Positions 17,109 through 59,832 of a stretch of DNA of 64,000 nt are shown piece after piece; position 1 is the first letter of the stretch; each line of letters opens with the position of its first letter. Below the pieces are notes generated by a model that saw only the letters and a program-made list of their open reading frames with translations, ran no database searches and had not been told where the DNA came from. Origin of the DNA: Hygrophila difformis (Eukaryota; Streptophyta; Magnoliopsida; Lamiales; Acanthaceae); the NCBI GenBank assembly GCA_030278955.1, contig JAOANR010000001.1, positions 21,679,468 to 21,743,467 on the forward strand, read 5' to 3'. Both the position numbers and the translations under genes were made by a program.

Positions 17109-17113
17109 ATTTT

Positions 17114-29578: not shown

Positions 29579-29920
29579 CAATTCGGTCTAGGCAATTCGG
29601 TCTACACTGAATTGCCCATATAGACCGAATTGCTGAAGAATAAAGAGGAATAATAGACCAAGTGTTGAGAGGAGAAGCAAGATACCCAATTCAGTTTATG
29701 CAATTCGGTTTACACCGAATTAATTGCATAGACCGAATTGATTCAAGACAAGGAAGCCAAGCAGGAACCATGAGCAATTCGACAAAATCAATTCGGTCTA
29801 CACTATACCGAATTGACACTGAAGACCACATCCCAGCCAAAGATCAAGAAAGAAGGACTTCAAGCAATTCGATTTCCACCAATTCGGTCTATACCGAATT
29901 GCATGTGGAGACCGAATTAA
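29579..29920. repeat. Palindrome array, element B LTR cluster 1
   Basis: Four units built from the half-site CAATTCGGTCTA and its inverse. The typical unit is one forward half-site, a 2-9 bp gap, a full palindrome of two abutting half-sites, about 6 bp, then one inverse half-site. Units lie at about 29,579-29,632, 29,687-29,740, 29,774-29,815 (shortened) and 29,864-29,920. They occupy the U3-like part of the LTR. The same cluster is in the 3' LTR remnant (44,215-44,566). Confidence 0.9.
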
Positions 29921-30909
29921 ATTCAAAATACATCCAGATGAAGCTGAGGAGCACGTGGAAAAAGCATGCCATTGCTAATGGGCTCTGATGGGCCTAAGGT
30001 TTTGAAGAACAAGTGTAAAAGCCAATTCTCACCAACACTGAAGATATCTCAGAACACATAATACAGTTCCAACCCTAATACTTAGAGAGGACAAGGGGTA
30101 CTAAGTTCTTCACCCCTTAAGGGTTAGGTAGGTAGATTAGTTAGATTATTTTTATGCACTTTAGATTAGTTTTTGGTGCTTTGATGTTAGTTTAATTTGT
30201 AAAGCTGTTACTACCACTTAGAGTAGCCATTTTCCATATTTTTAACATGTTTTGTAGTTAGAATGAACCCAACCTTCAATCTAATGATGGTTTTGGGTTA
30301 TTTACTTTGTTTTCAAGTGTTTAATGCAAAGAAAATTTCCAGAAATGGATTTTGGCTCATGTGTTTCACACTCTTTAAATGCTTTCTTTAGCAATAAATA
30401 TGGTAGAATGAATGTTTGTTCCAACTAGGTTACATTTAATATGTTTCTAGTTGGCTTTCATTCTTAATAAATGCATGTTAAGTGGATTTTTGGTGTGTTT
30501 TTATACCTTAGAGCTCAAATAAGTGTTCTTAGGTGTTTAGTTAATTTAAGGCTTCTTAGAAATAGGTTTACATGGTTTATTTTAATTTCCTTGCTTAGAT
30601 TTCTTGTTTATGTTGCCTTAGATAATTTAAGTGTTCTTATTCTTTTATGCATGATGTTCTTAGAATTATAGTTGTTTTAGGTTATTCACTCTTTGAATTA
30701 TTTGTTTGTAGCTTTAGGTTTTACTCCATGCTTTTATCCACTGAACATGCATGATTATGGATAACCACAAAATATTTACAAGTATGGCTGCGAGATGACA
30801 TTGATGTGAAATGAGTGATGGGGTCAATCCCATCTATCATAAACCACATCAACTTAGAAACCGCAGTGATATTTGTAAACATAAAAAATACACATGAGAA
30901 AATGTCATG

Positions 30910-31305
30910 TAATTCGGTCTAAGGCAATTCGGTTTATACCGAATTGCCCATGAAGACCGAATTGCATGATAAAAATGTTTGTTCACATCCTCACGAAGTT
31001 CCCATGCAATTCGATCATGCCTTTGTTTATTTTCTTTGTTAACCAATTCGGTTTGCCAATTCGGTCTACACCGAATTATCCTGGTAAATCGAATTAAACA
31101 CTCCTTTTGAAGCAAATGCCTTAGCCAAATTTGAGTAAAGGGATAACCCCATCAATTCGGTTTGTTCAATTCGGTCTATACCGAATTGCTTGACAAACCG
31201 AATTAGATGATGTTATTTCCCAACCTTACTATGATTAATTGGGTAAGATAACACTTCATTTCTCATGCATAGGTAATTCGGTTTATATTGCAGTAGACCG
31301 AATTG
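30910..31305. repeat. Palindrome array, element B LTR cluster 2
   Basis: Three full units of the same four-half-site design (about 30,910-30,964, 31,043-31,096 and 31,152-31,205) and a partial one at 31,273-31,305, plus an isolated half-site near 31,010. The cluster lies about 1 kb after cluster 1, probably downstream of the LTR transcription start. Confidence 0.88.
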
Positions 31306-33679
31306 ACCTCCCCTCGCTATTTTAAAGCTCCAAAAATATTTTATCTTCCTGAGTTGTGTAAGTTGCATGGGTGAATTGAGCTGAGGCCCAACACACCTAA
31401 CTTTATCCATTACACATCTCAACCATCAGTGTCTAAATTATTGTGTGATTGATACTTACACAATACCCAAAAAACATTCTTTTAATTTCATCTTTTCTCA
31501 TTAATTGTGTGTATGAACGGGTAGTAAGAGATATCACAGATCAATGTTGGCAAAAAGGTCCCTTCACCGGGATAACGATTAACTCGTCTTCTGTGTATTA
31601 ATTATTACTCGTTATTTTGCATGGTTTGATTAGTGATTAGTGGAAGCTACGGCAAAAAGGTCCCTTCATGGGGACAACGATTAGCCACTCAGCCAATTCC
31701 TAATTAGATATAGTTTCTTCTCTTTATCTTAATTTCAACCTGAATTTTGAGCCACAGTAATGTTAAACAGTGTCGATCAACATTGTTATAATAGTACTGT
31801 AGTAAGAAAACATGTGGGTTTTTACTCTCTCATGGATAGTAGGACTCTTGATGGTAGCGATCACTGTCATTAAGGGTTTCTTACTGTCTAAAAACCATTC
31901 CATCTGGAATAATTGGGAACTGGATGGCAGATGTTTGCAGTCCAGATAACCCCAGTTATTTCTGGCACTCTTTTAGCCAATTCTTCTCATTTCAAGGCTA
32001 ATCCATCTTTGTGTATCAAATTCTGTTTAATCCCACCATATATTTTGGGGTATTTTATTTTATTTCTCATATACATGTATGCATGATATTATTTTGTAGA
32101 TATTGTGGTCTATAATATTTTGGGGATCCTTCTCCTTGGACATAGAAGTCTTGATTTAAATCAGATGCTGCATAATAAATTTCTGCAAAAATTACTTTAT
32201 AAAATCCGGATCTAAGTAAGGGATAAATTCACAGTTATGACTAATTCATCTTCTACTGGGGGTTGATTTCGGGAAACTAGAAACAGAGTCAGCGATTAGG
32301 TCTCATCTAGACTGAAAGGATCTGTGCTTTAACTGAGAGTCTAGTACCTGTGTAGGGAATGATTTTCAAATATCAATTGTTTTCTCAAAATTACTGTGTG
32401 TTGGAAATCTTCTATTAAGTATTGCATCGAATCAGTGTTCACTTGGATTCGGATAAGATGTGATAAATAATACTAGAGGAACAACATGTAGGCCTTGGTT
32501 AATTTCTAAGGTAGGGGTTGAGTATTCTTTTAACTACTATCTTCTTCCGCCAAAGCCTATAATTGAGTCTTGAATGAGTACATTCGGAATAGATCTTCCC
32601 AGGTCTGTTCCACTCAGTTTGTATCTCATAACTAACCGGATGTTATAAGCCCTGTGGCTTACTGATATTTGGGAAGTTCTAAATCTGCATCTGGTCATCG
32701 AAACCAGGAGCTCTTTTATGCTAACAGAATGAGATAACTTTTGAGGCTTCCGAGTGATAGGTTTTTAAATGCTTTCTTTACTGCTTTCTTTACCGCTTTC
32801 GTTTAAATGCTTTTATAGAGGTCACTCGTAAGTATTAGAGGTTGGCCGCCGGTTGTAAGGTTTAAGAGTTGTGGATTAGTTCGGGATTTTATCTAGACTA
32901 TTGGGTGTGACAAGGGGGATGATAGGAGTACTTGGCATGTCAACTAATGATGTGTTAGGTGTTGCTTATTCACTATGGAAAAATAACATACCTCGGCAGG
33001 GGGAGTTATTAATCTGTGGTATCTTAGAAATTGAGGTCTTAAGAGCATGTAAATTCTGACTGTAAGTACCTGTCTGTTAAAGGGAACATAGTTAGAAAGC
33101 ATGAGAGTTAGCTAACTGATGAATTATCCCAACCAAAGATCTGTGTAATTAAAATGGAATTTTAATTATGTTTCATCTGAATCTTGTCCAATCTTTATTA
33201 TTTCCTTCCTGTCCCTTCTGTCACTTTTTAAATCTGCTTTCGTAGAATAATTTTAACCGCTTTCTTAAGCATAATTTTTATCGCTTTCTTAGAATAGATT
33301 TAATTGCTTTCTAGAATAATTTTAATATGCTTTGTAGAATAATTTTACTGCTTTCATAACTTTGTTTAAATTATGTATAGTAGTTGTTAGAAACCAATGC
33401 AAAACCTGAAACGAGTAACCGAGTGGAAAATCTTAGTAAACGACGTGGGCCCTGCTTCTATCGCACATCCTCTAGTGAACGATCCGGTCTTACTATAAAT
33501 TACTGCAATTTTTGACACCGTGCGCTTTCGGGCCACAGTTTCTTAACACGAGTAATAAAAACGTGAAAATCTTAATATATCCTTAAACCCCGTCAATAAA
33601 TCAAAACTCTTTTCATTTAATAAATTCAAACTGGATATATTTCAAAAATACTCGTGTGGGAAATCTGTCAAAAGTTTAA

Positions 33680-33697
33680 TGGCGCCGTTGCCGGGGA
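33680..33697 (+). promoter_or_regulatory. Primer binding site (tRNA-Asp) of element B
   Basis: TGGCGCCGTTGCCGGGGA, complementary to the 3' end of plant tRNA-Asp, immediately after the 5' LTR. This site is typical of the Athila clade. Confidence 0.92.
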
Positions 33698-33823
33698 GGA
33701 TACAGTCGTTTATCAAGAGAATTACACTCCTGATTTACTCAAAGATAGTTTTTGTATATACTATTGAACCATTACTAACCTGGGGGTTGTGCAGGTACTG
33801 TCAAGTTAAGATATAAACTGCTT

Positions 33824-36800: not shown

Positions 36801-36927
36801 GGAGGAGGAGGAGAGCACTAGGGACAAGGTAGTGGACCCTGTACTGACACAGGGTCGTGAAGGTAAATTTGATATTTCACCCCATCCGTTTCTCGCAAAT
36901 TACTGCCTTCCGTTGAATGTCCGCTAG
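33824..36927 (+). pseudogene. Gag-protease of element B, broken
   Basis: The Gag frame starts at 33,824 with a basic helix (DLEIERTARQLRAQARLRKE) like that of element E, followed by a Q/N-rich stretch and the gag domain (SGARDWYKSLP). A frameshift near 34,815 moves it to the next frame. That frame runs on with a stop at 35,056-35,058, the zinc knuckle CGLCQGPHPIDTC near 35,155, a Q/N/F-rich region, and a second stop at 35,584-35,586. From 35,599 the same frame holds the aspartic protease (LCDLGSSINVMP, near 36,258) to a stop at 36,927. Comparison with element D indicates a frameshift near 36,870-36,890 that separates it from pol. At least four lesions are present. Confidence 0.87.
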
Positions 36928-37001
36928 AGCTTGAACATAAAATACTTCCGGATCATCTTAAGTACGTTTTTCTCGCTGAACCTAAAAAGTTACCGGTAAT
37001 T

Positions 37002-39830
37002 GTGTCAGCTAAGCTGACACAAGAACAAGAAAAAGCTCTGGTAGACATTATCAAGAAATATGTACATGCAATTGGATGGACCATTTCTGATATAAAAGGA
37101 ATAAGCCCCTCTGTTTGCATGCATAGAATTTTAATGGAAGAGGAGTACAAGCCCTCTAGGCAACCCCAAAGGCGTTTGAACCCCCACATGCAAGAAGTGG
37201 TAACGAAAGAAGTTATCAAACTCTTAGATGCTGGTATCATCTATCCTATATCTGACAGCAAATGGGTTAGCCCAGTGCAGGTAGTACCTAAGCGTGGGGG
37301 GATGTGCATAACTACTAACAAACGAGGAGAAGAAGTGGCGACAAGGCCAGTGACCGGTTGGAGAGTTTGCATCGACTACCGGAAGCTCAATACCGCTACG
37401 CAGAAGGATCACTTTCCCTTGCCGTTTATTGATCAAATGCTCGAGAGGTTGGCCGGGAGGGAGTACTACTGTTTTTTGGATGGTTATTCGGGCTATATTC
37501 AAATTGTAATATCTAGTGAAGATCATGATAAAACTACTTTCACTTGCCCGTATGGAACTTTTGCGTACAGGCGCATGCCTTTTGGCCTTTGCAATGCGCC
37601 TGCAACTTTTCAGCGATACATGATGTCTATATTCTCCGAATTTATCGAAAAATGCATTGAAGTTTTCATGGATGACTTCTCTGTATATGGAAATACTTTT
37701 GATGGATGTTTGACTAATCTTGCAAAAATTTTAAAAAGATGCGAGGACACTAACCTAGTTCGGAACTGGGAAAAGTGCCATTTCATGGTTACCGAAGGAA
37801 TTGTGTTGGGTCATCGCATCTCGCGCGCAGGCATCGAAGTCGATAGAGCCAAGGTCTCAGTCATCTCCAATCTTCCATTACCCAATTCAATAAATGCAGT
37901 TAGGAGTTTCTTAGGGCATGCCGGTTTTTACCGGAGGTTTATTAAAGATTTTTCTAAAATTGCCAAGCCGCTCACTAACTTGCTTTGTAAAGAAAATTCC
38001 TTCGTAATAAATGAAGCGTGTGTTCAAGCCTTTGACACGCTCAAAAAGATGTTGATTTCTGCTCCAATAGTGCAACCACCCGATTGGTCAATACCTTTCG
38101 AGGTAATGTGCGATGCAAGTGATCTCGCCGTAGGTGCAGTTCTTGGGCAACATATGGAAGGGAAACATTGTGTAATTCATTACGCAAGTCATGCCCTACA
38201 TGAAGCTCAAATCAACTACACCATCACGGAAAAAGAGATTTATGATGTGGTTTTCGCGTTTGATAAATTCAGAAAGTACCTCATTTGTACGAAAACCATA
38301 GTGTACACAGATCACTCTACACTGAGATACTTGTTCAGCAAACAAGATGACAAACCTCGATTAATCAGGTGGGTACTTCTGTTGCAGGAATTCGATATCA
38401 AAATAAAATATAGAAAAAGCAAAGACAATGGTGCTATTGACCATTTGTCTCGAATAGAAAATGATAAAAATGAGATAGCCGTCAATGAAAATTTTCCGGA
38501 TGAGCAACTGTTTGCTTTGCCCCTTCATGATAAAGCTTGTCCATGGTTTTCCGACATTGCTAACTTTTTAGCATGTGGAATAATCCCACCATTCCAGCAG
38601 AAGGTCCATAAAGCAAGGTTCAACCGAGACGTAGTCAACTACTTCTGGGAAGATCCTTATCTCTTCAAGCATTGTGCAGATTCGATTATTCGACGATGTG
38701 TAACTGAGCACGAGGCTTATCAAATCGCTAGAAAATGCCATGAATCGGAATATGGAGGTCACCATGGTCCCACTCGAACAGCTCATAAAGTGCTCGAGTG
38801 TGGTTGCTATTGGCCTACCATTTACGAGGATTGCAGGGCGTTTGTTAAGACTTACGACAGATGCCAAAGACTAGGGAATATCTCCAAGAGGGATGAAATG
38901 CCTCAAAAAGGAATTCTCACTCTTGAGATTTTCGATGTATGGGGTATTGACTTCATGGGACCATTCCCGACATCTGATGGGAATCATTACATCTTGGTAG
39001 CTGTCGACTACGTGTCCAAGTGGGTTGAGGCGGTTGCACTGCCAACCAATGATGGTCACCAAGTCATCAAATTTCTGAAAAATAACACTTTTAATAGATT
39101 TGGTGTACCTAGGGTAATCATATCTGATGGAGGAGCCCATTTTGTTAACAAAGCTTTTGCAAATCTTATGAGCAAAACTGGGATTCTCCACAAGATAGGC
39201 ACGCCTTATCATCCCCAAACTAGTGGCCAAGTCGAGGTATCAAACCGCGAAATCAAACATATACTCGAGGCTACTGTGGGGATAACCCGTAAAGATTGGT
39301 CACGTAAGCTCAATGATGCACTATGGGCATACCGCACGGCATTTAAGACTCCCATTGGGATGTCCCCTTATAGGCTTGTCTTCGGAAAAGCCTGTTACTT
39401 GCCCGTAGAACTAGAGCATAAGGCTTACTGGGCCGTAAAAACGCTTAATTTTGATCCAAGAGTTGCTCAGGGCAAACGCAAGTTGGACCTCAATGAAATT
39501 GAGGAAATACGTGCGCAAGCTTATGAAAGCTCAAGGATATACAAAGAGCGGACCCAGAAGTTACATGATCGTCGTATTAAATCTAAACACTTCTATGTTG
39601 GTCAAAATGTCTTATTGTTCAATACTAGGTTGAAGCTATTCCCCGGAAAGCTTAGATCCAGATGGGAATGGCCATACGAAGTGGTGCACGTGTTTGAAAG
39701 TGGAGCTGTCAGGATTCGAACTGACAAGGGAGAGATGGTGGTAAATGGACAGAGATTGAAGGAGTACCTCGGACAGTTCGACACCAAAAAAGAAGTTCAA
39801 ATGATATCAGAGCCGGCCTATGCTCAATAA
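37002..39830 (+). CDS. RT-RNase H-integrase of element B (open frame)
   Basis: A 942-codon uninterrupted frame that would normally be the C-terminal part of a Gag-Pol polyprotein; the ATG at 37,002 is only its first Met after an upstream frameshift. RT carries the catalytic FMDDFSVYG at residues 222-230. RNase H follows ([13 protein letters not shown], about 370; [10 protein letters not shown]). Integrase has the HHCC zinc region (about 576-626, [13 protein letters not shown]...DRCQRLG) and the DDE core ([22 protein letters not shown]). No chromodomain is evident, as expected for Athila. All key residues checked are present, but the broken Gag-protease upstream makes the element non-autonomous unless complemented. 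Confidence 0.92.
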
Positions 39831-40298
39831 AATAATATATATTTATATAACTAATTATTTATTACATAGCATATTCATTATCTTGGGCAATAAGTATCCA
39901 AACATCAACTAAACATTTAGAGTACTAAAACTCTAAATGTGAGGATGTTGATATTTGGAGAAAAATCTAATAATTTTCCTATGTTTGCCTTGCAGGAATT
40001 CATGGAATCAACAAAAAGAAAAATAAAGCTTCAAAATTTCAGGTTCCGGGTTGGATTAATATTGCAATTAATGGAAATTAATTTCAGAAATTAGAGAAAT
40101 TTAAAGTCCGGAATAAATCCACAAAATAGCAGTGTTAATCCAACCTAATTTATGCAAGCAATAAATATTTAGAATAATCATTGTGTGTAAGTAAGCGTGC
40201 TCAGTATTTTGGATTTGTAGAAAATGCATAATTTTAGAAAATGTTAAAAACTGGAAAATTTCAAAAATTTTGTTAAGTATTGCCTTGGTAAATTCTCC
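39831..40298 (+). other. Spacer after pol with hairpin and polypurine-like motif
   Basis: Non-coding. At 39,913-39,952 a hairpin (CATTTAGAGT, loop, ACTCTAAATG) runs into TGTGAGGATGTTGAT, the same sequence that stands at the 3' LTR boundary (43,866-43,882) and in the intron (42,362-42,400). Confidence 0.6.
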
Positions 40299-40780
40299 AA
40301 ATTCGGTCTCCAAGCCAATTCGGTTTAGACCGAATTGATCGAAGAGATCGAATTGATCCCCCAAGGCACACATTCGGTGTTAATTTTGCTAAGTAGCAAT
40401 TCGGTCTAAGTAATTCGGTCTATACCGAATTGATTTTGAAAGATCGAATTGATTTACAAAAGGCATTATTTTATTTTCTCATTTTTGCAAGTGACCAATT
40501 CGGTCTAAAAGGCAATTCGGTCTATACCGAATTGCCTGAATAGACCGAATTGCCTCACAAAAGCACCCTTTATTCTTCTAAGTGTCCAATTCGGTATACT
40601 CTCTCCAATTCAGTCTTATGTCAATTCGGTCTAGACCGAATTGATTTTAAACACCGAATTGAAGTGAGTTGTTTGTGTTTTTCTCCAGATTCGGTCTACA
40701 AGCAAATTCGGTCTATACCGAATTGGCCTAGAGACCGAATCCCTCACAAAGAATTGGGGATTTCATCAATTCGGAATTGA
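40299..40780. repeat. Palindrome array upstream of the internal promoter, element B
   Basis: Five units of the CAATTCGGTCTA half-site design at about 40,299-40,353, 40,397-40,451, 40,496-40,552, 40,586-40,662 and 40,688-40,740, plus a half-site pair near 40,769. They are the same units as in the LTR. The array ends about 20-60 bp before the TATA box at 40,798. Confidence 0.9.
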
Positions 40781-40797
40781 TCCCAGTCCCACTCCCT

Positions 40798-40808
40798 TAT
40801 ATATATAC
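40798..40808 (+). promoter_or_regulatory. Internal TATA box of element B
   Basis: TTATATATATA followed by a pyrimidine-rich leader (CCCTTTCCCTCTCTTCCC). It lies about 150 bp before the ATG at 40,951. Element D has a TATA box (TATAAATA) in the equivalent place, also directly after its palindrome array. Confidence 0.7.
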
Positions 40809-40950
40809 CCTTTCCCTCTCTTCCCTCTCACTTTCACTTCCACATTTACAAAAATCCCCTATTTCCCTCTCGCGACCCTTCGTCTTCCTCGCGAAACCAG
40901 AGCTCGAACCCAAAACTTCACTCCATCCAAATCACTCCCAAGCTTTTTAA

Positions 40951-43532
40951 ATGGCGTCTTCATCTTCTAATCCAAGTGGGAGCATGGGGTAAGTTCTCTG
41001 TTTTCGATTCCGCGCCCCATTGTCGTGTTTCCAGTTTTGATTTTTATGAATTTTTGCGAAATCCCGGGGGGGGGGGGGGGGGGAGATTGTAGACTATTTT
41101 TATGTTGGGGAAGGTCGGAATGTGGTCGGAATATGTTGGGCATAATCGAAATAGCTTAAAACAGTGTTAGTAGAACTTAGGGTTTTTCCCTGTTTCCTTG
41201 TTCGAACTCCATTGTTGATGTTTTGAAGCTTACTGTGTTCTAGGATGTGTTTATCTTTGAAAAATATTTGGGTTTCAAAACCCTCAAAAATCTGTTTTGT
41301 CCATTGTGTAAATTTGGTTGTCATTTCATTTGTTGATGACTGTGATTACACTTAGAAAACTGTGATGATGGTGATTACAGGGGTAGCTTTTCCATTTTGC
41401 TCCTGTACCACTGTTTTGATATGTGTGATGATGATCATTGAATAAGCATGATTCATTGAGTGAATCTATTGTGTTGAGTTCTTGAAGCATGATTTGTTGG
41501 CAAAATTTTCTTTTGAAAAATGTTGACATTTGTGAACTGTGTTGAATTTTATTGTGTGTTTGTTTGCATGTACTGTATTTGTGAATTTTGCTAATAAAAG
41601 TTTTGTGGGTACCTAGTTGACCACACCATGCAAATAAACTGAAAAGTTGATGTTTGTAATAAACATGAAAACATGGGTTACAAACAAAACCATGCCAAAA
41701 TTTTTCCTGACATGTGTTTCTCAAACACAGTTGGTTTGGCATTTATGTATAAAAGAGACAAAAAGTTGGTAGGATTCTTTGTTTTGCTTCATTAAGTGTT
41801 TGACTTGCACATGTGGATATGTGGGGAAGCAACAAAGTGTAGTAATTTTGCTCACTTTTCATCACCCATTATCCACACAAAAATTCAAATGGGGGACCAC
41901 TCACACCCCCAATTTTATTAAATAAAAAGTCAACACTTTGTATTAAAATCTAAAAATAGTCTTTGTGTGTTTGTGTTAGTTTATTTTTATTTTTATTTTT
42001 CCTTAATCCATTGCCTCATGCTAGCAATTGCATCATTCATCATGTGCATTTATTCTCCATCATTGAATTTTTTTTCTCATCCCATCTCACATGTTTTAAA
42101 TCACTTTTATAAGTGATTAAAAATTAAAATTTTCTTAGGTGGGCTCAATAGCCTACAAAAATTCCATCTTTTGGTCTCTTGACCATTTGAAAAATCCTTA
42201 GACTATTTTTTTTAGTCTAAGAAAAATTATAAGGGTCCAAGACTCTTATTTTTCTTTTCTTCCTTTATACTATTTGTGTTCAATAAAGTTAGATTTTATA
42301 ATCTAACTCGGTATCTTAGTACCTATCTTTTGCCTCAATAAATTCAAGTGAAACCAATTAACCACATTTAGAGCAAGGCTCAAAATGTGAGGATGTTGAT
42401 TTTTAACTTAAATCTTATTTTATTAAAAATTTGTCAAAAATATTCTCATCTCTTCTTCTTCAGGGACCAATATATCATTGAGGATTCCGTAATGGGGCTT
42501 TCAAAGACAACTCCAGATCTTGCCTTTCTAGAGATCGAACGAATGAAAAGGGAAATGGACGAGAATAGACGAGCTTTGGAAGCCGAATTCAAGTTAAAGA
42601 TGGATCACCAGATCGAATGGAGATTCGAGATGAAAGAACACTGGTGGAGAAACATTCCAGAAGAGGACAGAAATCACAAGGCTATGGGACTTGAAAGAGA
42701 TTTTTGCAAGCATGTTCTGAATTTCTGGGATAATGAGTTCACACACGCCACTTTTGATCAGAGATTCTCGCCCGAAGTACACTACGAAAGAATGGTCTAG
42801 AGAATGATTGAACAGAAAGGCCGGTGGAATAGATTACTGGAGCAAAAATTTGGAGACAAGAAAGTAGCAGCCTTTGAGCCGATCCCTATCCAACATGCCA
42901 TCACAGAAGAAACCAAGAGGTATTATGCCAGAAAAATTCCTCCAGCACAACAAGTGGCGGTCTCCGGGATATTCTCTATGACAAACGCCTTCCCATTCAT
43001 GTACAAGAAAGAGTTATTTGACAATGGGACTGTCTGCGGACCGGAAGAGCAATTGTGGCTCACAAAGCACGCCAAGGCACGCCATACTGAAATGGCATAT
43101 AACTTTTGGGAATCTCTCAAGCCCGTGTTGAGTTATGGAGCAGCCCACCACACCCCAATGCTGGATACAATAATTGAGCGTACAAAGGCAATAAGGGAAC
43201 TGTGGGGCGAGTACATGAAAGCATGGGGGAGTTGGAAGAAGGATATCAGAGTCCCAGTGCTAAACCCAGGAGTGGTGATACCCCCAGGGAATGAGGAGAT
43301 TATCCCAACATTTTTGCCAAAGAGATTCCCGGCGGTTATACCTAGAGAAGTCGCGATGGATGAGATGCCAAATTTTGCACTCATCAGAACCGTATGCCCC
43401 GTTATAACCCTCAATAAGACATCAGGATCTCGATTTGAGGAAATGAGTAGGTGGCGAGTTGGTCTGATTGCAAGCTTATGGGAGAATTTAATTGAATTTG
43501 ATTATGAGCGTATTGTCCAAAATCCAATTTGA
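40951..43532 (+). pseudogene. Spliced post-pol ORF (ORF3) of element B, one stop
   Basis: Exon 1 is 40,951-40,988 (12 codons plus 2 bases, Ser-rich) and ends at a GTAAGT donor. The intron spans 40,989-42,463 and ends in TCTTCTTCTTCAG. Exon 2 is 42,464-43,532. The splice keeps the frame open, giving 368 codons with a single TAG at 42,798-42,800. The exon 2 product is charged, with a probable coiled-coil (EIERMKREMDENRRALEAEF) and Trp-rich parts. No signal peptide or membrane segment is visible, so it does not look like an envelope protein although it occupies that position. The function is unknown. The last ~50 codons are clearly related to a remnant in element D (56,045-56,185). Splice sites are inferred from sequence and from the matching layout in D. 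Confidence 0.72.
40989..42463 (+). other. Predicted intron of element B ORF3
   Basis: 1,475-bp GT-AG intron (GTAAGTTCTC to TTCTTCAG). It is AT-rich with a run of 18 G at 41,066-41,083 and a hairpin/polypurine-like motif at 42,362-42,400. No other coding frame is supported. Confidence 0.65.
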
Positions 43533-43878
43533 GAGTGTGTGAGATTTCCGTTTCCACTATATGTGAGGCTCTGCTTTGATTGATTAATGTTCATGTCATG
43601 CTTGAATTCAAGAATTAAACCAATGAGATTTTCTATACATATATTCAAGAAGAATTAACAATAATGATTGATTTGTATACCGACTCAAGTGAAAAATATC
43701 ATTTCATTAAACACTGCAATCAAGAGAGTTTAATACTTGTAATTTTGATTATCTTATCCCAATATAAAAAGAATGAAATTTTTGAAGCCACGCAAATGGA
43801 TTGAATGTGCAGAGGCCTTGCTGTTAGGAGCATTGACTCTGACTGCTCGGGGACGATCAGTATTAAATGTGAGCATGT
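43533..43878 (+). other. ORF3 3' flank and LTR boundary, element B
   Basis: Non-coding. It ends with CTGCTCGGGGACGATCAGTA and AAATGTGAGCATGT, the purine-rich boundary directly before the 3' LTR. The same sequence precedes element D's 3' LTR. Confidence 0.6.
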
Positions 43879-44597
43879 TGATAATGGCCAAAATTATCCA
43901 TTATTTCCAATCCATTTCCGTGTCTGAGACGGACATTTTGATCGTATTCCCATCTTATTTTAATAAGAAAGCAGTTGAATTCGACAAATTAATGTGAGTT
44001 TTTAAAACAATAAGCTGGTAATGAAAGACACAAAAATATGCAATTTTAATTGTAGTTGTGTTAGAAAAATCCAAAAATATGAAAAAAGGAAAAAGAAAAG
44101 AATAAAGGAATGAAAAGATGGGCAAAAGAATAAAATAGCCCACAAAAGTCAAAAAGATGGGAAAAAGAATGAAAAACCCACAAAAATAAAATTTTTGGCC
44201 AAGTGTTGAAAGGCAATTCGGTCTAGGCAATTCGGTCTACACCGAATTGCCACCGAATTGCCCATATAGACCGAATTGCTGAAGAATAAAGAGGAACAAT
44301 AGACCATGTGTTGAGAGGAGAAGCAAGATACCCAATTCAGTTTATGCAATTCGGTTTACACTGAATTAATTGCATAGACCGAATTGATTCAAGACAAGGA
44401 AGCCAAGCAGGAGACCATGAGCAATTCGACAAAATCAATTCGGTCTACACTATACCGAATTGACACTGAAGACCACATCCTAGCCAAAGATCAAGAAAGA
44501 AGGACTTCAAGCAATTCGATGTCCACCAATTCGGTCTATACCGAATTGCATGTGGAGATCGAATTAAGTTCAAAATACATCCAGATGAAGCTGAGGA
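43879..44597 (+). repeat. Element B 3' LTR, truncated, with palindrome cluster
   Basis: TGATAATGGCCAAAA onward matches 29,243-29,958 with few differences. It includes the palindrome cluster (44,215-44,566). Similarity stops at CTGAGGA (44,597), where element C's LTR sequence begins. About 3.7 kb of the LTR is missing. Confidence 0.9.
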
Positions 44598-46883: not shown

Positions 46884-47111
46884 AGTTGGTATCAGAGCCC
46901 GGCTATTTTTAAACTATTATTTTTAAACTATTATTATTTTTAAACTACTATTAATATTTTGACTATTATTTTAAATTTTAAAAGTATTATTTCCATGGAA
47001 AAATTTTTATTTTAAAACCCATGGAAAAAATATATATATATATAGTGTATAAATTATTGTTGGGGGGAAATCATCATTTGCATTTGCATATTGCATCTCC
47101 TTTAGGTAAAG

Positions 47112-47226: not shown

Positions 47227-47251
47227 AACTTAGATCTTTTGCTTGCGCTAG

Positions 47252-47926: not shown

Positions 47927-50900
47927 ATGGCACCCAGAGGAAGAGGAAGAACTCAACCCGCTCCCCAAACCACTACTGAAACACCTACAGAAAAACCCCC
48001 AAATGTCACGGAACCGGCTCAACCTGTAGAGGAACAACCCCAAGGTGCGCAGGACGCCCCCGCACCGAACAATGTGGGCGATCGTCTTCGGACGATAGAG
48101 GTGGTCTTGATTGCGCTAGGGAACGCGCAAGTCAACCAGGGCCAAGCTGCGGCGGTACCTCCGCCCCAAGCTCGCCCCAACTATCTGGCAATGGTGAATC
48201 CCTACCAGCCGCCCCACTACGCTGGTGAGGAGGATCCAGGTAAACTAGAGGAGTGGATCCGAACCTTCGACAAGCTGCTGGGAGCAGTCAAATGTCCGGA
48301 AGGAGAGAGAGTGCACGTCGCTTCGTACTACTTGGGAGGCGAAGCGGACGACTGGTGGCAGGCAACTCAAGCCAAGCTGACTGAAGATGACGAGCCCTAC
48401 TCTTGGGCGGAAATGATGGAACTACTCAGGGATCGATTCTATCCCTTGAGTACTAAATCGGCGATGTATGAGGAATTCCTATCGCTGAAGCAAGGAGGCC
48501 ATACTGTGCAGGAGTACTACACTCGTTTCAAGGAACTAGTAAGGTTCGCAAAAAGGCTAGTACCCACGGATGCAGAGAAAGCACAGAAGTTCGAGATGGG
48601 ACTGAACCTGTCTGTTCGCGAGGTGATCGCGGGGGTACACTACCCCGATTTGCAAGCTGTGTATGACCGCGCTGTGGCAGTAGCGCGTGTGCAACAACTG
48701 AAGAGAAGGGTGAGTGGGTAGTCCAGCAGGGGTCCCCAAGACAAGAGAAACCGGGAGGTGAGAAGCGAGAACAACACGGGAAGGAACGAACAGCGGAGAG
48801 GGTCGAATAGGCCACAATAAACCAACAATGGGAGGAGGTTTAACCAAGAAGAACCGGTACCACCCTGCTCAAGATGTGGACGACCCCATCTGGCGAGGGG
48901 ATGCCCTCAACAGGGCGCCTGCTTCCGATGTGGTCGAATGGGTCACATTCGTCGGGATTGCCGAACGAGGATGGAGAACATAACCAAGAGGGAAGATTTG
49001 GTCATGGGGCCGGAACAACCTCAGAACCAAAATGGGCGGAACGGAAATAATCAGGGGTATAGACCCCCTCAAAACCAATTTAGGCCGCCGAATCAGAACC
49101 AGAACCAACGACCTCCGCCACCGCAGAATCAAAACCAACAGCAAAATCAGCAGCAGAATGCGAATCAGCAGGGCAACCAAGGACGCCCTATGGGAAGGCT
49201 CGACGTGGTTAACCAAGCGGACGTGCCTGCACAAGGAGAAGTGATGGCAGGTACTTTTCATGTTTTGAATACACCCCTTAGAGTTCTATTTGATTCTGGA
49301 GCTAGTTGCTCAAACATAGCATCAAGGATAGTGCCTGAGTTAGATCTACCTAAGTGCGAGAGAATTAGCTTAGGAATTCAATTGCCTTCTGGAGAAGTAG
49401 TATCTTGCTCTAAACGATATAACAGAATTCCTATAGTGATAAAGAACGTAGAATTCTTCGCGAACTTAGTAGAATTTAAATTAAGAGACTTTGACATCAT
49501 ACTGGGGATGGATTGGTTATCCCAGTATAAAGCGGTGATCGAATGCCAAAAACAAAAGATCACCTTGTCAAAAAATAGGGGAAAGAGAGTTATCTTTTAC
49601 TCTCAGCCCCCTAAGAAGAGTAACAAAATCGTTAGTGCACTCAAACTAAGTAACATGATGCGTAAGGGGTATGAGCTATATACGTGCTACGTGCACAACC
49701 TTGAGGCGGAAGAGAATAAGGTTGACAGCATACCAGTGGTAAGAGAATACCCGGATGTGTTTCCTGAAGACATCCCGGGAACGCCACCTGAGAGGGATCT
49801 TGAGTTCACTATAGATCTCATCCCGGGCACAGAGCCTGTCTCAAAAGCTCCATACCGGATGGCACCACTGGAAATGAAGGAGTTAAAGGACCAACTCGAG
49901 GAGCTGTTAGGAAAATGGTACATAAGGCCGAGTACTTCCCCCTGGGGAGCACCGGTTTTTTATGTTAAGAAGAAAGACGGAGGATTACTTCTTTGCATAG
50001 ACTATCGAGGGTTAAACAAGTGACTATCAAGAATAAATACCCTTTGCCGAGAATAGAGGATCTATTTGATGAACTGAAGGGAGCTTCAGTATTCTCGAAG
50101 ATCGACTTACGGTCTGGGTATCACCAGTTGAGAATTGCTGAGAAAGACATTCCGAAGACGGCGTTCCGAACTCGATACGGCCACTACAAGTTCACAGTGT
50201 TATCCTTTGGTTTAACAAATGCTCCGGCAATGTTCATGAACCTCATGAACAATGTATTTCGAGAGCTGTTAGATCAGTGTGTAGTGGTGTTCATAGATGA
50301 CATCCTGATCTACTCGAAAAGTGAGGAGGAGCACGCCCAGCACTTGCACCAAGTGTTAGGGACCTTGCGAAAGAATCAACTATACGGCAAATTGTCCAAA
50401 TGCGATTTTTGGTTGAAGGAGGTAGCATTTCTAGGACATATAATATCCGCTGATGGAGTTTCAGTGGATCCGGCAAAAGTCTCTGCCGTAACTGAATGGG
50501 CAACTCCAAAAAGCCAAACTGAGATAAGGAGTTTCCTTGGATTAGTCGGGTACTATAGACGGTTCGTAAAGGATTTTTCGAAAATCACACGACCTTTGAC
50601 CCAACTACTGAAGAAGGGAGTAAAATACGTGTGGACAGAGGCTTGTGAGACAGCGTTTCAAGAGCTGAAGAAACGACTCACAACCACACCCGTATTGACA
50701 TTACCATCAGAGAATGGCGACTTCGAAGTTTACATCGATGCTTCGAAGGAAGGTTTAGGTTGTGTCTTGATGCAAGACTCGAGAGTCGTAGCGTATGCAT
50801 CACGCCAGCTAAAACCTCACGAGGAGAATTATCCGACACACGACCTGGAGTTGGCAGCGGTCGTTTTCGCTCTAAAGATATGGAGACATTATCTTTACGG

Positions 50901-51234
50901 GCGGAAGTGTCAAATGTTCACCGACCACAAGAGCTTGAAGTATATATTCACTCAGAAGGAGTTGAATTTGAGACAGCAAAGGTGGTTGGAACTTATTAAA
51001 GACTACGATTTAGAGATATCCTACCACGAGGGGAAGGCGAATGTGGTAGCCGATGCCCTAAGTCGGAAAACCCAACACGTGACGAACTCGTTGGTAATTC
51101 CGCCGGCATTGTACATGGATTTAGCGAGATTGGAGTTGGAACTTGTGCATCCGGGCACAGTGAGTGACACGATCAATACCATGATCGTAGAAACTCCAAT
51201 ATTGGATGAGATTAGGCTCGCCCAACCGGGCGAC
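47927..51234 (+). pseudogene. Gag-protease-RT-RNase H of element C, broken
   Basis: Gag starts at 47,927 (MAPRGRGRTQPAP). I prefer this to the in-frame ATG at 47,885 because it aligns with element A's Gag start. The frame has stops at 48,719-48,721 (TAG for GAG) and 48,818-48,820 (TAA). It continues through two zinc knuckles ([27 protein letters not shown]) and the protease ([14 protein letters not shown], near 49,290) into RT. A one-base deletion near 50,015 (in LNQVTIKNK) shifts it to the frame ending at 51,237, which carries [15 protein letters not shown] (near 50,290), RNase H ([25 protein letters not shown]) and the start of the RNase H-integrase linker. Element D cuts it at 51,235. Confidence 0.9.
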
Positions 51235-53798
51235 TGAAACTTTTGACAATTTCCTACACGAGTATTTTGTAAAATACCAAGTTCGAATTTCTTAATTGAA
51301 AAGAGTTATGATTCTGGGGAAATGGGTTTAAGGATATATTCCACTTTTTATTACTCATGTGGGGGACTTCGATCTCAAATGGTGTTGTGGAACTCCCCGG
51401 CATGAAACTTTTGACAATTCCATGCTATGGAGATCCTTGCCATGAAACTTTTGACAAGTTCCCACTATATGAGTATTTTCTGAAAATTAATAATCCCGGT
51501 TTTCAATTTTATTTAATGAAACCAATTTATGAAGATGGAGTTGGGATTAGGGATGTATTTATAGGTTGTCACGTTTTTATTACTCGTGTTAAGAAACTGT
51601 GCCCCCAAAAGCGCACGGTGTCAAAAATTGCAGTAATTTATAGTAAGACCGGATCGTTCACTGGAGGATGTGCGATAGAAGCAGGTCCCACGCCGTTTTA
51701 CTAGATTTTCCACTCGTATTGCTCGAATCGGTTTTGAAGTTGGACTAACAACTACATAACTGAATTTAATCTACAAAATAAGCTAAAGAACATGCTGATA
51801 TAATTCCACAAAAACAACAATAAAAAGCTGTAAATCTATGCTATAGTATCTATGAAGCTGATTCAAAATGCTGACAGAAAAGACAGGGAGAAAAAAATAA
51901 AGATTGGACAAGGTTTAGATAAAACATAATTAAACTTCCATTTTTATACATAGATCTTTGCTTGGGATAATCCTGTCAGGAAGCTAATTCTCATGCTCTC
52001 AGCACCATGTTCCCTTTAACAGACAGGTACTTACAGTGTGAGTTCACATGTTCTTAAGACCACAAGTTCTAAGATACCACAGATTCATAACTGCCCCGAC
52101 CAGGGTATGATATTTCATCTGTGGTGGTCAAGCAACACCTGTCAAGTCATTAGTTGAATTGCCAAGTACTGCTATCATTCCCCCGCGTCACACCCAAAGT
52201 TTCTAATCAAGCCCTGAATTATCCCTTAACTCTCAGTCCTAGTAGCAGTTAGAAGATCTAGAGACACATCCGATGACCTCTACGAAAGCAATTAAAAGAA
52301 AAAGCAGTAAAGAAAGCATTTAAAATCCTATCACTCGGAAGTTTCAAAAGCTTCGTACTGGTAGTAAAAGAAAGCCCCCAGTCAGGATGACTGGATGTGG
52401 ATCAAGATCCAAAATTTTGGTGAACCGCTCGCAGTGTTCGCTTCCTTCCGGGTGGTTATGAGATACAAACTAATGAAACGGACTAATAGGTTAGTTCGTT
52501 CTGGATGTACTCACTCAGGACTCAAAAATAGGCTTTGGCAGAAGAGGATAGTAGTTGAAAGAATACTCAACCCTATCTTAGAAAAAAACCAAGGCCTATG
52601 TATTGTTTCTCTAGAATTACCCATCACACTGTACTTGAATCCAAGTGGATCCCATCTCGGTGTGACAGTTAAGACTAAATTCCCAACACATAGAAATTTT
52701 GGAAAATAATAAATGTGAAAACCATTCCCTAAACAGGTACTAGACTCTCAATAAGAACACAGACCCTTTCGGTCTAGAAGAGACCTAATCGCTGACTCTG
52801 CGGTATCTATTTTTGTTAGAAGTTTAATATGCGGTATCTATTTTAAATCTAGACTTCTAATGTCCAAGGGAAGGATCCCAAAATATTATGGACCACAGTA
52901 GCTACATAATAATATCATGCATAAAGATATATGGAAGTGTAAAATTAATCAACCCAAAATATAATGGTGGGTTTAGACAGAACGCGTGACACAGAATGAG
53001 GTGGCCGTGAGGCCAAAAGGGTGGCAAAGTAATCAGGTGGATTGCAAACATCTGCTTTCCAACTTCCCAACTACTCGGATGGAGCGAATCTAGACAGCAG
53101 AAACCCTAAAATGGCAGTGTCGCTACCAGTTGGGCCCTTACTGTCTGCGAATTCTGACAAAAACCTACATGCTTCCTTTCAACAGTATTCATTAGCTAAT
53201 ATTGACAGATATTAACCAACTTATATTACAGATTGGAATTTGGGTTTAGAAATTAAGGCAAAGAGAATAAAACAGTATTTGGACAGTGATTAATCGGGTG
53301 GCTACTTCATTTCCCGGTGAAAGGACCGTTCGCCTGACCTCGTTAGTTATTATCCAAACCATGCAAAATAACAAACAGTAATTAATATACAAATTACGGG
53401 CTACTTCATTTCCCGGTGAGGGGACCGTTCGCTGACATTATTCTGTAATATCTCTCACTGTTTGTTCATACATCACGAAAAAGGATAGAATAAGATAAAA
53501 ATAAAGACAGTGCCTTGTATGAGAGACATTGGTTTCTCATGCAAGATTATAGAACCAGTCCATAATTAATGTCTTAAATAATCCTTCTCTCCATAATTAA
53601 TTACAGTCCGGATTATCTGCTTAATGCATTAAGGTTTTGTTTATAGAAAAATATTTTAGGGAGAATTGAACAAAGGTCCTTTAATCAAAGTAATTATCGA
53701 TCTTAATCATTGCTAATTATGATCTTTAATTATTGACTTAAGGGTTCAATTAATTAATGAAGAAATTGGAGAAATGGAAAATCTGGCAAAGCTGCCAA

Positions 53799-54430
53799 TT
53801 ACGACGCTATACAGATGTTACGACGCTATCCTAGGACAGCGTTGTGGGGATAGCGTCGTCATGGATTGGTGATAGAGGTAAAAATCTTGGTGTTTTAAAG
53901 AGATTATGTGCGACGCTATCAGTGGATAGCGTCGTAGTGTTGGTGTCGTACATGAGTTTAGAATTGAGATGCTACGACGCTATGCATGCCTTACGACGTT
54001 AAACGTGGTTTACATCGTAAGGTCTAGCGTCGTAGTGAGGAGAGATGGTTTTGAAAGAGGAAGAAGTTGCTACGACGCTATACACTAAATTACGACGCTA
54101 TCCTAGGATAGTGTCGTAGGTGTAGCGTCGTAGGTGGATTTTCTGAAGAGTTCGAAAAAGGGAAGGGTACGACGTTATGCACTAATTTACGACGCTATCC
54201 TAAGATTGTGTCGTGGTCATAGCGCCGTAGGTAGGTTTTTTTAATGAAAATGATAAGTTTTGGGGTCCTAGGACCTTAGAAAAAAATTACGACGCTATCA
54301 GTGGATAGCGTCATAGGTCTAGTGCTGTAGGGAAAAATTTTGTTCACATCCTGAAGTAACTACGACGTCAGACTCTGCCCTACGTCTCTATCAGTGGATA
54401 GCGTCGTAGGGCGGTTAGCGTCGCTAGCTA
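53799..54430. repeat. Palindrome array, element D LTR cluster 2
   Basis: About seven units built on the half-site TACGACGCTATCC and its inverse. Full units (half-site, gap of about 10 bp, full palindrome, about 6 bp, inverse half-site) lie at about 53,799-53,860, 53,972-54,034, 54,070-54,134 and 54,169-54,230. Shorter ones are at 53,910-53,951, 54,289-54,330 and 54,360-54,430. The layout is the same as in element B but the sequence is unrelated. Confidence 0.9.
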
Positions 54431-55082: not shown

Positions 55083-55090
55083 TATATATA
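55083..55090 (-). promoter_or_regulatory. LTR TATA box of element D
   Basis: TATATATA, read as CCTATATATAGAG on the minus strand, about 600 bp into the LTR and about 60 bp after the first palindrome cluster. Confidence 0.6.
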
Positions 55091-55148
55091 GGCGAGAAAC
55101 CCTAGGCCCATAGGCCCCCAGGCCCTTGAATTTGAATTCTGCAGCTTG

Positions 55149-55404
55149 GTACGACGCTATACTCGGCTTCGTCGCTATCTTCATTACGACGCTATGGGTA
55201 CTGCGTCGTAGTCTTCCATCTCAAAACAATCTGTCTCCAAATGGACAGCTTACGACGCTATACTCCGTTACGTCGCTACACTTGAGTACGATGCTATGCT
55301 CGGCGTCGTAGTTCTTCCTTCAAGGTTGTCTTCATTTCTGCCTACGACGCTATACTCGACTACGACGCTATACATGCTCAGCGTCGTAGTTGTGGCTAGT
55401 GTCA
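55149..55404. repeat. Palindrome array, element D LTR cluster 1
   Basis: Three units with TACGACGCTAT half-sites at about 55,149-55,211, 55,252-55,312 and 55,342-55,404. On the element strand they lie just upstream of the LTR TATA box at about 55,085, so they sit in U3. Confidence 0.88.
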
Positions 55405-55693
55405 TAATTTCCTGGAATTGTCAGATTTTTGTGGGTTTTCATTTCTTTTCCCATCTTTTTTGTTTCCTTTTTCTTTTCTTTTCTTTTTCTCATGTTTTTG
55501 GATTTTTCTAACATAAATGTGTAATAAAATTACATATTTATGCATTTCTCATACCAGCTCAATATTTTTACTGATATGCATAAATCAGTCCAATTCTACT
55601 GCTTTTTATTTAATATAAGACCGGAATGCGATCAAATGCCCGTTTCAGACACGGAAATGGATTGAAAATAATGGACATTTCTGGCCATTATCA

Positions 55694-57388: not shown

Positions 57389-59453
57389 CTAGGGAAAGAG
57401 GAATCTGCTCCAGTGGATGAAGCTTGTCAAATTGCAACGCAGGCACCAGCCGTGATGTTCTTCTAGGGTTGCTCCATTCATTGGGCAGTAGATCCGGTCT
57501 GCCTGGCCATGGAACAGACCAGGGGAGTCCAAGTTATTTTCCACCCATCCGAGGGTGTTAGTGGACGTGTAGACAAAGACCGACCTATCAGTTACCATTT
57601 CGTCGATCATTTTGATCCCTAGAAGAATTTGGCTCTCCTCATGCTTGCTCATCAGCATCAGCCCTCGCACAAAGATTGACGCTTTGTGATTATCCTCTAT
57701 CCCTAGTCGCAGCATCTCGCAGGCTTGCTCTTCATCCCCTCCTGTAAATGCTTCTATTGCCGGGACGATCTGAAGGTTGAAATTTTCTGCCTCCATGCAT
57801 TTTTGTAGAAATTCCTCCTTCTGCCTCCATGCATTTTTCACGGAGGAGAGTTCCAGTTCACACCGCTTGTAGACGATGGTGAGATCGCCTGCGTCCCTCA
57901 GCTTTGTGCAAGTTTCCCTAGCTCTGAACACTTCCTTCATCTCATCCACCCCGATTCGGGAGAGGATTTCTCCTAGCAGCTCCAATGGAAGATCCAGAAG
58001 CTGGGTCCCTCCAGGTACTGGGTCCGGGATTTGGAAAATGTTGTCCCTGAACAGATAGAGAGTGATGAATCCAATTTTATAATTTTCTCAGAAACCATTC
58101 AAATTTGGAAACCAACATCCTCACATTTAGAGCTTTGCTCTAGGTGTGAGATTATTAAATTTCCAACTTGAATTTTAATATAAGGCATAGGTAGAAATTT
58201 TTTTCTTTTTACACTTTGAGATAATTTCAAAGCAGTGAGTTATTAGGGAAAGATAGGGGTCATTGGGCCCCTAAATATTTGAATGGACTATTAAGTCCAA
58301 AATAAAGTAAAAATGGTCATAGACCAAAAATCTTTATAATGGGTCATAGGGCCCAAAAATTTGATTTCCAATTTTTAAACAGTCCCGAGGTGATTGTTGA
58401 AAGTGCAATGGAATGGAACGGAACGCGAATCGAGGAATGTGCAATTGGTGACGCGGCGGCTCGGAACTGCTCAACTTGAACTGTTTGGAAATGAGAAATG
58501 GGCAGTTTAAGTGATAAAAATAAGGAGAAATCAATTTTTAATTTTATAAGGGTTGACCAGATTTATTTAATAAAAGGTGGGATTTTGTGGTCCCAATTTT
58601 GGAATTTTCTAAGTGATAGCAGTCCACATGATGAGTAGATACTGCTATTTTATTACACTAGTTATGCTCCATTGGGAACAAAACAAGTTGGTCAATCTTT
58701 AAAAAGAAAGAACCCACTTACTATTTTGTCTTTTTCAAAAAGGTCATTTTCCTTTGAAAAAGTGGTAAGCTCCCATTGGGTGCTTGTACCATGTTTCCAA
58801 AAACAAGCAAACATTTATTCCCAAAAGATTTTGTCATGCTGCTAACAGGTATGCCAAAAGGAACACCCAAAAGAATGCTCCCTTTACCCACAACAGCAAG
58901 CATAAATCATTATTAACACAAAATTAAACCTAACAGGGTTTGAACCAAAGTAAACACTCAAGCTTGTCAAGATCTTAGAAAAACTAACAACATCATGGTG
59001 CTCAAAGTAACATCCTAATGCTCATCAGTTCACTTTTTCAGTTTTTGGGTTTCAAAAATTCTCAAACCCTAACTGCTCTTTCCAAAAGTTTTGTGGGTTT
59101 TAGAAATCAAAAGCTCCACAAGATTTGAACCTCCTTAACAACAGCACAAAATCAAACATCTTCTCAATCATGCTCGAACAACACAGATAGTAGCATAAGA
59201 AAACTGAAAATACTCTTCCTACTCAAAACCGAGAGCAACAAGACCCAAAACGAGAAAATAAGAAAACAAACAAGGCACATTATGCTATTACAAGTTATTT
59301 ACAAGTGTGAGACACAAAATGCCAAGTAAAATTGCAAAAACAGGGGAGGTTCGAGAATGGGGGGGGAAATGAGACAGCTTACTCCGATCTTCCCCTTGAG
59401 GGAGAGGGAGGCATCGGTCCCAAGTTTGGAAAGAGTCGGAAAAATCTGGCCAT
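57389..59453 (-). CDS. F-box-like protein in the post-pol unit of element D (two exons)
   Basis: Exon 1 is 59,453-59,383 (23 codons plus 2 bases) and ends at a GTAAGC donor. Exon 2 is 58,046-57,389 after a CTGTTCAG acceptor. The joined frame is open and encodes 242 residues. Exon 2 begins with an F-box-like motif (LPLELLGEILSRIGVDEM), followed by a helical region with Sel1/TPR-like character and a C-terminal Cys/His cluster (CPMNGATLEEHHGWCLRC). This order resembles the plant At2g35280-like F-box family. F-box proteins usually bind SKP1 in SCF ubiquitin ligases. It stands where element B has ORF3 and uses equivalent splice sites. Capture from a host gene is inferred; coding integrity suggests it is recent or maintained. 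Confidence 0.75.
58047..59382 (-). other. Predicted intron of the element D F-box unit
   Basis: 1,336-bp GT-AG intron. It includes the hairpin/polypurine-like motif (58,112-58,150) about 65 bp upstream of the acceptor, the same relative place as in element B. No other frame is supported. Confidence 0.65.
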
Positions 59454-59571
59454 AGTATCCGCTGGTTTTGGTTGGAAAATGTTGCGAAGAACTGTGCGTT
59501 CTCTCACAGGGAAGTGGGTTTGAAAAAAAATGAGAGTGAAGAATGAAAATGGGGAAGAAGAAGGGTTGGGG

Positions 59572-59579
59572 TATTTATA
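59572..59579 (-). promoter_or_regulatory. Internal TATA box of element D
   Basis: TATAAATA on the minus strand (CCTATAAATACCCC), about 120 bp before the exon 1 ATG and 16 bp after the last palindrome unit. A pyrimidine-rich leader follows. Confidence 0.78.
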
Positions 59580-59595
59580 GGCGGGAGAAATGCTG

Positions 59596-59832
59596 TTACG
59601 ACGCTATACTTGTCCTACGACGCTACACTAACGTCGTAGGGTGGGTTCAGCGTCGTAACTGGAATAAAGGGAAAAGTCAACTACGACGCTATACTATTGG
59701 TACGACGCTGGTGTAGCGTCGTAGTTCGGTGTAGCGTCGTAGGTCGGGAGTGAGATGAAGGGGTACTACGACGCTATCCATTTACTACGATGTTATACTA
59801 GGATAGCGTCGTAGTTAAGGACTGCGTCGTAA
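59596..59832. repeat. Palindrome array upstream of the internal promoter, element D
   Basis: Three units with the TACGACGCTAT half-site at about 59,596-59,658, 59,682-59,744 and 59,766-59,832. Each has the four-half-site design found in the LTR of the same element. They abut the internal TATA box. Confidence 0.9.

Follow-up and report, generated by a model that had tools for sequence, protein, structure and literature searches.

Based on the analysis of a 64-kb window of the Hygrophila difformis genome (contig 1, 21.68-21.74 Mb, of a 915-Mb assembly with 246 contigs), we found that two related long terminal repeat (LTR) retrotransposons, designated B (plus strand) and D (minus strand), each carry arrays of one palindromic half-site at two places, namely in the LTR and immediately 5' of an internal TATA box that precedes a gene downstream of the polymerase region (the post-pol gene). 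The half-site of B, CAATTCGGTCTA, is unrelated to that of D, TACGACGCTATCC. The LTR and internal motifs were concordant in all 12 elements in which both arrays were readable. We propose that the arrays may be swappable binding sites for a trans-acting factor that would couple both promoters of one element, a reading drawn from sequence evidence to which we give about an even chance.

Half-site arrays in elements B and D

In these elements, reverse transcriptase (RT) and RNase H precede integrase within a single frame, and the Pfam matches are of the Ty3 type; they are therefore Ty3/gypsy and not Ty1/copia elements. The label Athila-type, used here for B, D and their relatives, comes from their general anatomy and from a first-pass annotation of the window. 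Self-alignment of the window showed the kinship of B and D, with 80.5% identity over 4 kb of pol; identity was 80% before and into the 3' LTR and 70-74% in the leader, and the LTR cores and arrays were unalignable. The two elements have a common post-pol plan consisting of the array, a TATA box, a short ATG exon running to a GT donor, an intron, a TTCAG acceptor and a second exon, the splicing being predicted. The features are as follows, with positions counted in the window.

29579..29919, plus strand: B 5' LTR array 1, CAATTCGGTCTA units (motif matches)
30910..31305, plus strand: B 5' LTR array 2 (motif matches)
36873..39830, plus strand: B pol frame with RT, RNase H and integrase (Pfam)
40299..40780, plus strand: B internal array, immediately 5' of the internal TATA box (motif matches)
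40798..40807, plus strand: B internal TATA box TATATATATA (direct reading; putative promoter)
40951..40988, plus strand: predicted short coding exon 1 of the B post-pol gene, ATG to donor GTAAGT (direct reading; putative splicing)
42464..43532, plus strand: predicted B exon 2, open reading frame (ORF) pieces 42464-42797 and 42801-43532, split by one in-frame stop
44214..44566, plus strand: array 1 of the truncated B 3' LTR (motif matches)
53800..54430, minus strand: D LTR array 2 (motif matches)
55083..55090, minus strand: D LTR TATA box (direct reading; putative promoter)
55150..55404, minus strand: D LTR array 5' of the LTR TATA box, TACGACGCTATCC type (motif matches)
57389..58046, minus strand: predicted D exon 2, open, F-box (PF00646) and TPR_27 (PF23310), a multi-copy element gene (Pfam)
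59383..59453, minus strand: predicted D exon 1, ATG to donor GTAAGC (direct reading; putative splicing)
59572..59579, minus strand: D internal TATA box, TATAAATA on the minus strand (direct reading)
59597..59832, minus strand: D internal array, immediately 5' of the internal TATA box (motif matches)
60337..62112, minus strand: D RNase H and integrase frame (Pfam)

With up to two mismatches, CAATTCGGTCTA had 59 matches in the window compared to 5.2 expected, a number reached in none of 100 shuffles; 56 of them fell inside the four B arrays listed above and three elsewhere. For TACGACGCTATCC there were 30 matches compared to 0.44 expected, all inside the D arrays. The first-pass annotation had reported two unrelated half-sites in these arrays, and its coordinates were right within a few bases.

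It had also described the unit as a half-site, a gap, a palindrome, a gap and an inverse half-site, and this description held in the larger sample: among 223 convergent B half-site pairs from the window and 20 fetched loci, 194 had a fixed core-to-core spacing of 12, and 191 of these 194 palindromes had the centre NTAN. The outer B half-sites were mostly 14-15 or 17-18 bases away. Both outer half-sites (at 13-20 bases) were present for 85 of the 194 central palindromes, so incomplete B units are common, and in none of the 85 complete units were both outer distances 15 or less. In D, six of the seven units of LTR array 2 had a central spacing of 17, while the two remaining arrays had spacings of 12, 13, 15 or 17; the outer D sites were at 14-20. 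Units of a third code, E, found in related copies, followed the same scheme with a centre spacing of 19-20 between the core words used. The unit layout is thus similar in all three codes, as expected from the earlier claim that geometry is conserved while the sequence is replaced, with the qualification that D follows the plan more loosely; the claim that each element is internally uniform was only approximately true, many half-sites having one or two changes. A CGG-CCG core occurs in B and E2 and is lacking in D and E1, and the B palindrome includes CGGTC-GACCG. Below the LTR arrays of B, D and E lies a similar core promoter, GGGCCTAGGGTT plus a TATA box with small changes, which suggests that the core promoter was retained while the arrays were swapped. 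The word TATAAAA was absent from the B 5' LTR of the window and present in all five other B-type LTRs checked; the second B LTR ends at about 44,597, short of its second array.

When the two arms of the palindromes were compared, deviations were mirrored at 10 of 168 deviating positions (4.7 expected; the largest of 500 re-pairings gave 12), and at 7 of 129 (5.2 expected) when unique palindromes alone were counted. This scarcity of mirroring speaks against hairpins as what chiefly constrains the sequence, and favours recognition of the individual half-sites. In nine internal arrays, half-site columns had 90.7% identity compared to 83.2% for spacer columns, counting columns with letters in at least six of the nine sequences.

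Array types and gene content in related copies

The B palindrome, with at most one mismatch, had 10,887 forward and 10,922 reverse matches in the genome, and the control had none. The 20 loci, of 9.9 kb each, were fetched around B palindromes on contig 1, and most of them contained Athila-type sequence. Of 146 palindromes at 21 examined loci, all of these loci being on contig 1, none was farther than 1 kb from a stretch matched to an element; Athila-type sequence accounted for 139 and an unrelated element, L021, for seven. An F-box gene with 50-58% identity to that of D was found in five of the fetched loci. Six loci (L026, L028, L033, L034, L035 and L037) held an integrase, an internal array and both LTR arrays, every array being of the B and none of the D type; the post-pol gene was an F-box gene in five of these six, and the other 14 loci were left out of the concordance count. 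An additional B array in L037 (8811-9330) adjoins an integrase match and probably comes from a second, nested copy.

Copies were also chosen by their coding gene. When the genome was searched with the F-box protein of D, 6,376 candidates were obtained; 150 of them were scored (68-100% identity), and about 110 of the 150 were free of stops. For eight F-box copies, short flanking stretches on either side of the gene were sampled. Four copies gave both arrays (C10:38.8M and C4:26.2M, D in both places; C1:41.4M, E1 in both; C6:16.3M, E2 in both) and three the LTR array alone (C1:64.2M and C12:50.0M, D; C8:38.5M, E1); at the remaining copy, C2:33.37M, neither array was found and other sequence was present. 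The 12 concordant elements thus comprise the six loci fetched by the B motif, B and D of the window and four copies chosen by their gene, with seven B, three D, one E1 and one E2. The agreement within each element that the first-pass annotation had asked for was therefore borne out in the copies that gave both arrays.

Code E has a further, new half-site, in which CTGTGTCGC precedes either GAGGC or GGAAC. In the C1:41.4M element, 8 of 21 half-sites were E1-like and 4 of 21 E2-like; in the C6 element, the corresponding numbers were 0 of 15 and 8 of 15. These few sites suggested a finer E1/E2 match between LTR and internal array. Strict E1 palindromes at 25 listed places were compared with 26 F-box positions picked by contig from the 150, and four of the 25 lay within 20 kb of a compared F-box. 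One, 1.58 kb upstream of a C7 F-box, would by its distance belong to an internal array, and two, 10.95 kb upstream of F-boxes in C7 and C11, to a 5' LTR; the fourth, at C1:21,024,887 and 7.6 kb upstream of an F-box, fitted neither distance. For the strict D palindrome no pair within 20 kb was found among 50 listed palindromes and 67 of the 150 F-box positions, so this pattern gives no positional support.

Comparison of D with the B-type copy L034 located the replaced sequence. Identity was 77-84% in RT and integrase and about 70% just after; most of the internal promoter and intron was unmatched, the F-box frame had 59-69%, and 76-86% was found from the non-coding stretch into the first 270 bases of the LTR. 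The LTR core was unmatched and the leader matched weakly. In this one comparison, two separate blocks are replaced, the LTR core (about 1.9 kb) and the internal array with promoter and F-box gene (about 2.8 kb). The coding F-box DNA was less similar than the adjoining non-coding DNA despite purifying selection on the gene (ratio of nonsynonymous to synonymous distance, dN/dS, 0.09-0.24 among four copies). The F-box synonymous distance (dS) between B-type copies (L034, L037, L026 and the window) and D was 2.4-3.3, near saturation, compared to an integrase dS of 0.74-0.91 measured in other B-type copies (L030, L033, L040 and the window). From the higher F-box dS and the low similarity of the F-box relative to its non-coding neighbour, we infer that the block was exchanged.

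The F-box gene itself did not follow the motif. Copies with the D motif had LTRs 88-95% identical to the D LTR, yet their F-boxes ranged from 68 to 97%. Over 136 codons, where dS was uncomputable for two of 15 pairs, two D-motif copies differed by a dS of 1.05 and an E-motif F-box was closer to each of them (0.62 and 0.72). The gene thus varies among D-motif copies and groups across D and E while both arrays stay matched. We therefore rejected the view that motif type simply tracks the F-box clade, and the earlier suggestion that it might track a clade of a coding region failed for this gene.

Plant viruses have F-box silencing suppressors, and by analogy a possible role of the F-box and TPR_27 gene (57389-58046) against host silencing would be worth testing. 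No DNA-binding domain was matched in the F-box proteins scanned. None of 187 candidate relatives from a protein database search was significant, and the solved structures gave three weak matches (E 0.13 or worse). Neither ORF piece of the B exon 2 had a Pfam match, the piece 42801-43529 had no match among solved structures, and viral contigs held no relatives of the B pol or B post-pol ORF.

B arrays were also present in L021, which belongs to a different Ty3/gypsy lineage (36% identity to B in RT and about 24% in integrase) and contains gag and RT, with a match to SH3_Tf2-1 in the tail of its integrase. They were found in both of its LTRs, immediately 5' of TATAAAT, and before gag, and no Athila sequence was found within 1 kb of its seven palindromes. 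The B code is therefore not confined to one family, as this unrelated element has B palindromes ahead of its TATA box. A search with the L021 integrase gave 25,039 candidates; 125 were scored, many of them clustered and with long open frames. This suggests that L021 may belong to a centromeric CRM-type family; the three L021 pieces scanned had no chromodomain. Its promoter word had 72 exact matches in the genome.

Some further observations concern the structure of B and D and their surroundings. A word resembling a polypurine tract (PPT) and LTR start, approximately AAATGTGAGGATGTTGAT, occurs three times in B (39931-39956 after pol, 42379-42404 in the intron and 43861-43886 at the LTR), and the first two copies have splice-acceptor-like TTGCAG/TTCAG within about 85 bases downstream. 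Three such copies are present in L028, L033, L034 and L037 as well, an arrangement reminiscent of the multiple PPTs of Sireviruses. The D LTR (55693-53505) is followed by leader-like DNA in the same orientation (53505-51439, minus strand) that matches B 31481-33683, though pol precedes the LTR; this suggests a product of unequal recombination, with one LTR between two internal regions. A frame of the Ty3 RNase H and integrase type (28336-29478) extends into the beginning of the B LTR (at about 29,243), which suggests that B was probably inserted into another element. The stretches 25,727-28,907 and 48,064-51,242 are 77% identical. Tandem subtilisin-like protease genes lie at 931-8625, one with a Peptidase_S8 match (frame 931-3189) and a second of similar sequence split by an insertion. 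A young element has an LTR pair of 98% identity (15536-17109 and 22441-24013) and gag and protease frames (17216-19807); no comparable palindrome array was found in it.

Candidate explanations for the matched arrays

In the explanation we prefer, the arrays would be clusters of putative sites at which a factor binds DNA in a sequence-specific manner, probably as one dimer or as two. The factor would work on the LTR promoter, which would give the genomic RNA, and on the internal promoter, which would give the spliced post-pol gene, usually an F-box gene. Lineages would have changed the recognition sequence more than once (B, D and E1/E2) while keeping position and unit layout, both promoters receiving the same new code. 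Protein binding, activation or protection from silencing, and the source of the factor are inferred parts of this proposal. The factor is probably not the F-box protein; a host factor, or one that some elements encode and others take advantage of, is more likely than a strictly self-encoded one, because L021, with no recognised extra gene, uses the B site and the F-box does not follow the motif.

Several points weigh against the proposal of a shared, switchable factor. The 20 large loci were selected for having B palindromes, and in the gene-chosen copies the membership of both stretches in one element was judged from the distance to the F-box. Concordance can also be explained by descent and gene conversion. 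Spacing is looser in D than in B, and E1 and E2, with many half-site letters in common, may be one code with two flavours. The choice of columns by core match favours conserved columns in the identity comparison, and the ten mirrored arm changes are about twice the mean expectation, although within the range of the re-pairings. L021 is the only member of its lineage that was read.

Independent host-factor sites are a possible, less probable explanation, which overlaps with the preferred one so that the two are not exclusive: each code would be recognised by its own host transcription factor, unrelated to those of the other codes, and lineages would have adopted the codes separately. It agrees with the B site held in common with L021, with the similar core promoter below all three kinds of LTR array and with the CGGTC-GACCG of the B palindrome, which several Sirevirus motifs also contain (PMC2829016). 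A similar four-part spacing in three unrelated sequences would be unexpected for different factor families.

It is unlikely, in our view, that the whole of a more specific scenario applies, in which lineages would escape or become specialised by changing the code of their matched tetrad sites at both promoters together, and an unrelated, centromere-type element would have taken over the code used by a successful family so as to use its factor. We are equally doubtful about a self code of the kind encoded by VANDAL transposons with their VANC proteins, in which the family would encode a factor, the F-box or another product, that recognises its own arrays, counters silencing and co-evolves with them. 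The roughly 110 stop-free F-box matches, the low dN/dS, the F-box block replaced along with the arrays in L034 and D, and the F-box dS exceeding that of integrase in other B-type copies fit such a code; so does the fast change of VANC target repeats between related VANDAL elements (PMC5735166). Against it stand the dS values that place the D-motif F-boxes nearer to an E-motif one, the spread of F-box identity (68-97%) among copies with LTRs 88-95% identical to the D LTR, the lack of DNA-binding domain matches in the F-box proteins scanned, the use of the B site by L021, and the retention of B sites by the window element, whose post-pol ORF pieces have no F-box match. Of the self-specific code put forward by the first-pass annotation, the concordance is supported by the 12 elements, while the privacy is contradicted by L021.

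Homogenisation, in which recombination or template switching would copy array DNA between both places without a functional link, seems rather improbable. The sharp-edged blocks between D and L034 would suit it, as would the frequent recombination of Arabidopsis Athila families reported in PMC2410132. In the window, however, the LTR and internal arrays align only over short single-unit stretches and not over their flanks, the replaced blocks are large (about 1.9 and 2.8 kb), and L021 has the B half-site with no Athila sequence within 1 kb.

A hairpin or small-RNA source, in which the nested inverted half-sites, which could fold, would form RNA or DNA hairpins such as Dicer substrates, is very improbable and was rejected as the main function, since arm changes are seldom mirrored and it would not require one half-site common to the units of both arrays; the earlier note's mention of it is weakened accordingly. 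The palindromic LTR regions of maize Sireviruses are reportedly linked to small RNAs.

Relation to known systems

Among the papers listed by our search of the literature, which covered titles and abstract openings and left subscription papers mostly outside, none described matched arrays in Ty3/gypsy elements, which is weak evidence of absence. Post-pol ORFs are described in PMC11963269 and PMC7264820, the former also with tandem repeats, and the word F-box does not occur in the passages seen of PMC7264820 or PMC13317346. In Athila elements, a post-pol gene, the exchange of gene modules between families and purifying selection have been described (Marco and Marin 2008, PMC2410132). Unlike those elements, the ones described here differ in their LTR and pre-post-pol promoter arrays as a matched pair, and their post-pol gene was an F-box gene in five of six B-type loci with both arrays.

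VANC21 targets a DNA transposon whose motifs are arrayed in a single orientation, and its binding was shown by chromatin immunoprecipitation sequencing and electrophoretic mobility shift assay (Hosaka et al. 2017, PMC5735166). As in the VANDAL/VANC system of Arabidopsis, the motifs described here are short, clustered in non-coding transposon DNA and fast-changing between related elements; here they are palindromic tetrads in LTR retrotransposons and are known from sequence alone. The main frames of these elements that were scanned, a subset of all ORFs, contained no VANC domain (DUF1985/DUF287) and no DNA-binding protein, and the comparison with VANC therefore remains an analogy.

The genome offers thousands of candidate copies, matched sites on two promoters and at least three codes in one layout, and whether plant LTR retrotransposons have private co-evolving regulators is now a directly testable question. 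The case of L021 suggests that one code may be reached by unrelated elements through convergence or borrowing.

The closest likeness is to the Sireviruses, of the Ty1/copia group, and the present elements extend the Sirevirus motif observation of 2010 to Ty3/gypsy. According to Bousios et al. (2010, PMC2829016), 13 Sireviruses carry repeated palindromic motifs at 8-32 copies per element. Most copies lie in the upper half of the LTR, and in the four elements illustrated there they precede the TATA box. In nine Sireviruses with an env-like gene, motifs lie upstream of that gene too (77 of 79 linker copies), and linker copies occur only where this gene is present. The motif sequences differ by element, with a CGG-CCG core in 12 of 13. 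Similarly, the B, D and E palindromes are repeated in the LTR upstream of the TATA box and again just upstream of the post-pol gene, and the B palindrome has the CGG-CCG core, which D lacks. Several features set the present motifs apart from those of Sireviruses. They occur in Ty3/gypsy elements, and four half-sites at favoured distances make up one unit. Replacement at two places distinguishes related elements, F-box genes frequently take the post-pol position, and the B code is common to two unrelated lineages. We therefore regard the arrays as a variant, in Ty3/gypsy elements, of the palindrome arrays of Sireviruses, distinguished by units of four parts, three or more codes, two-place replacement and a code that is also present in an unrelated element.

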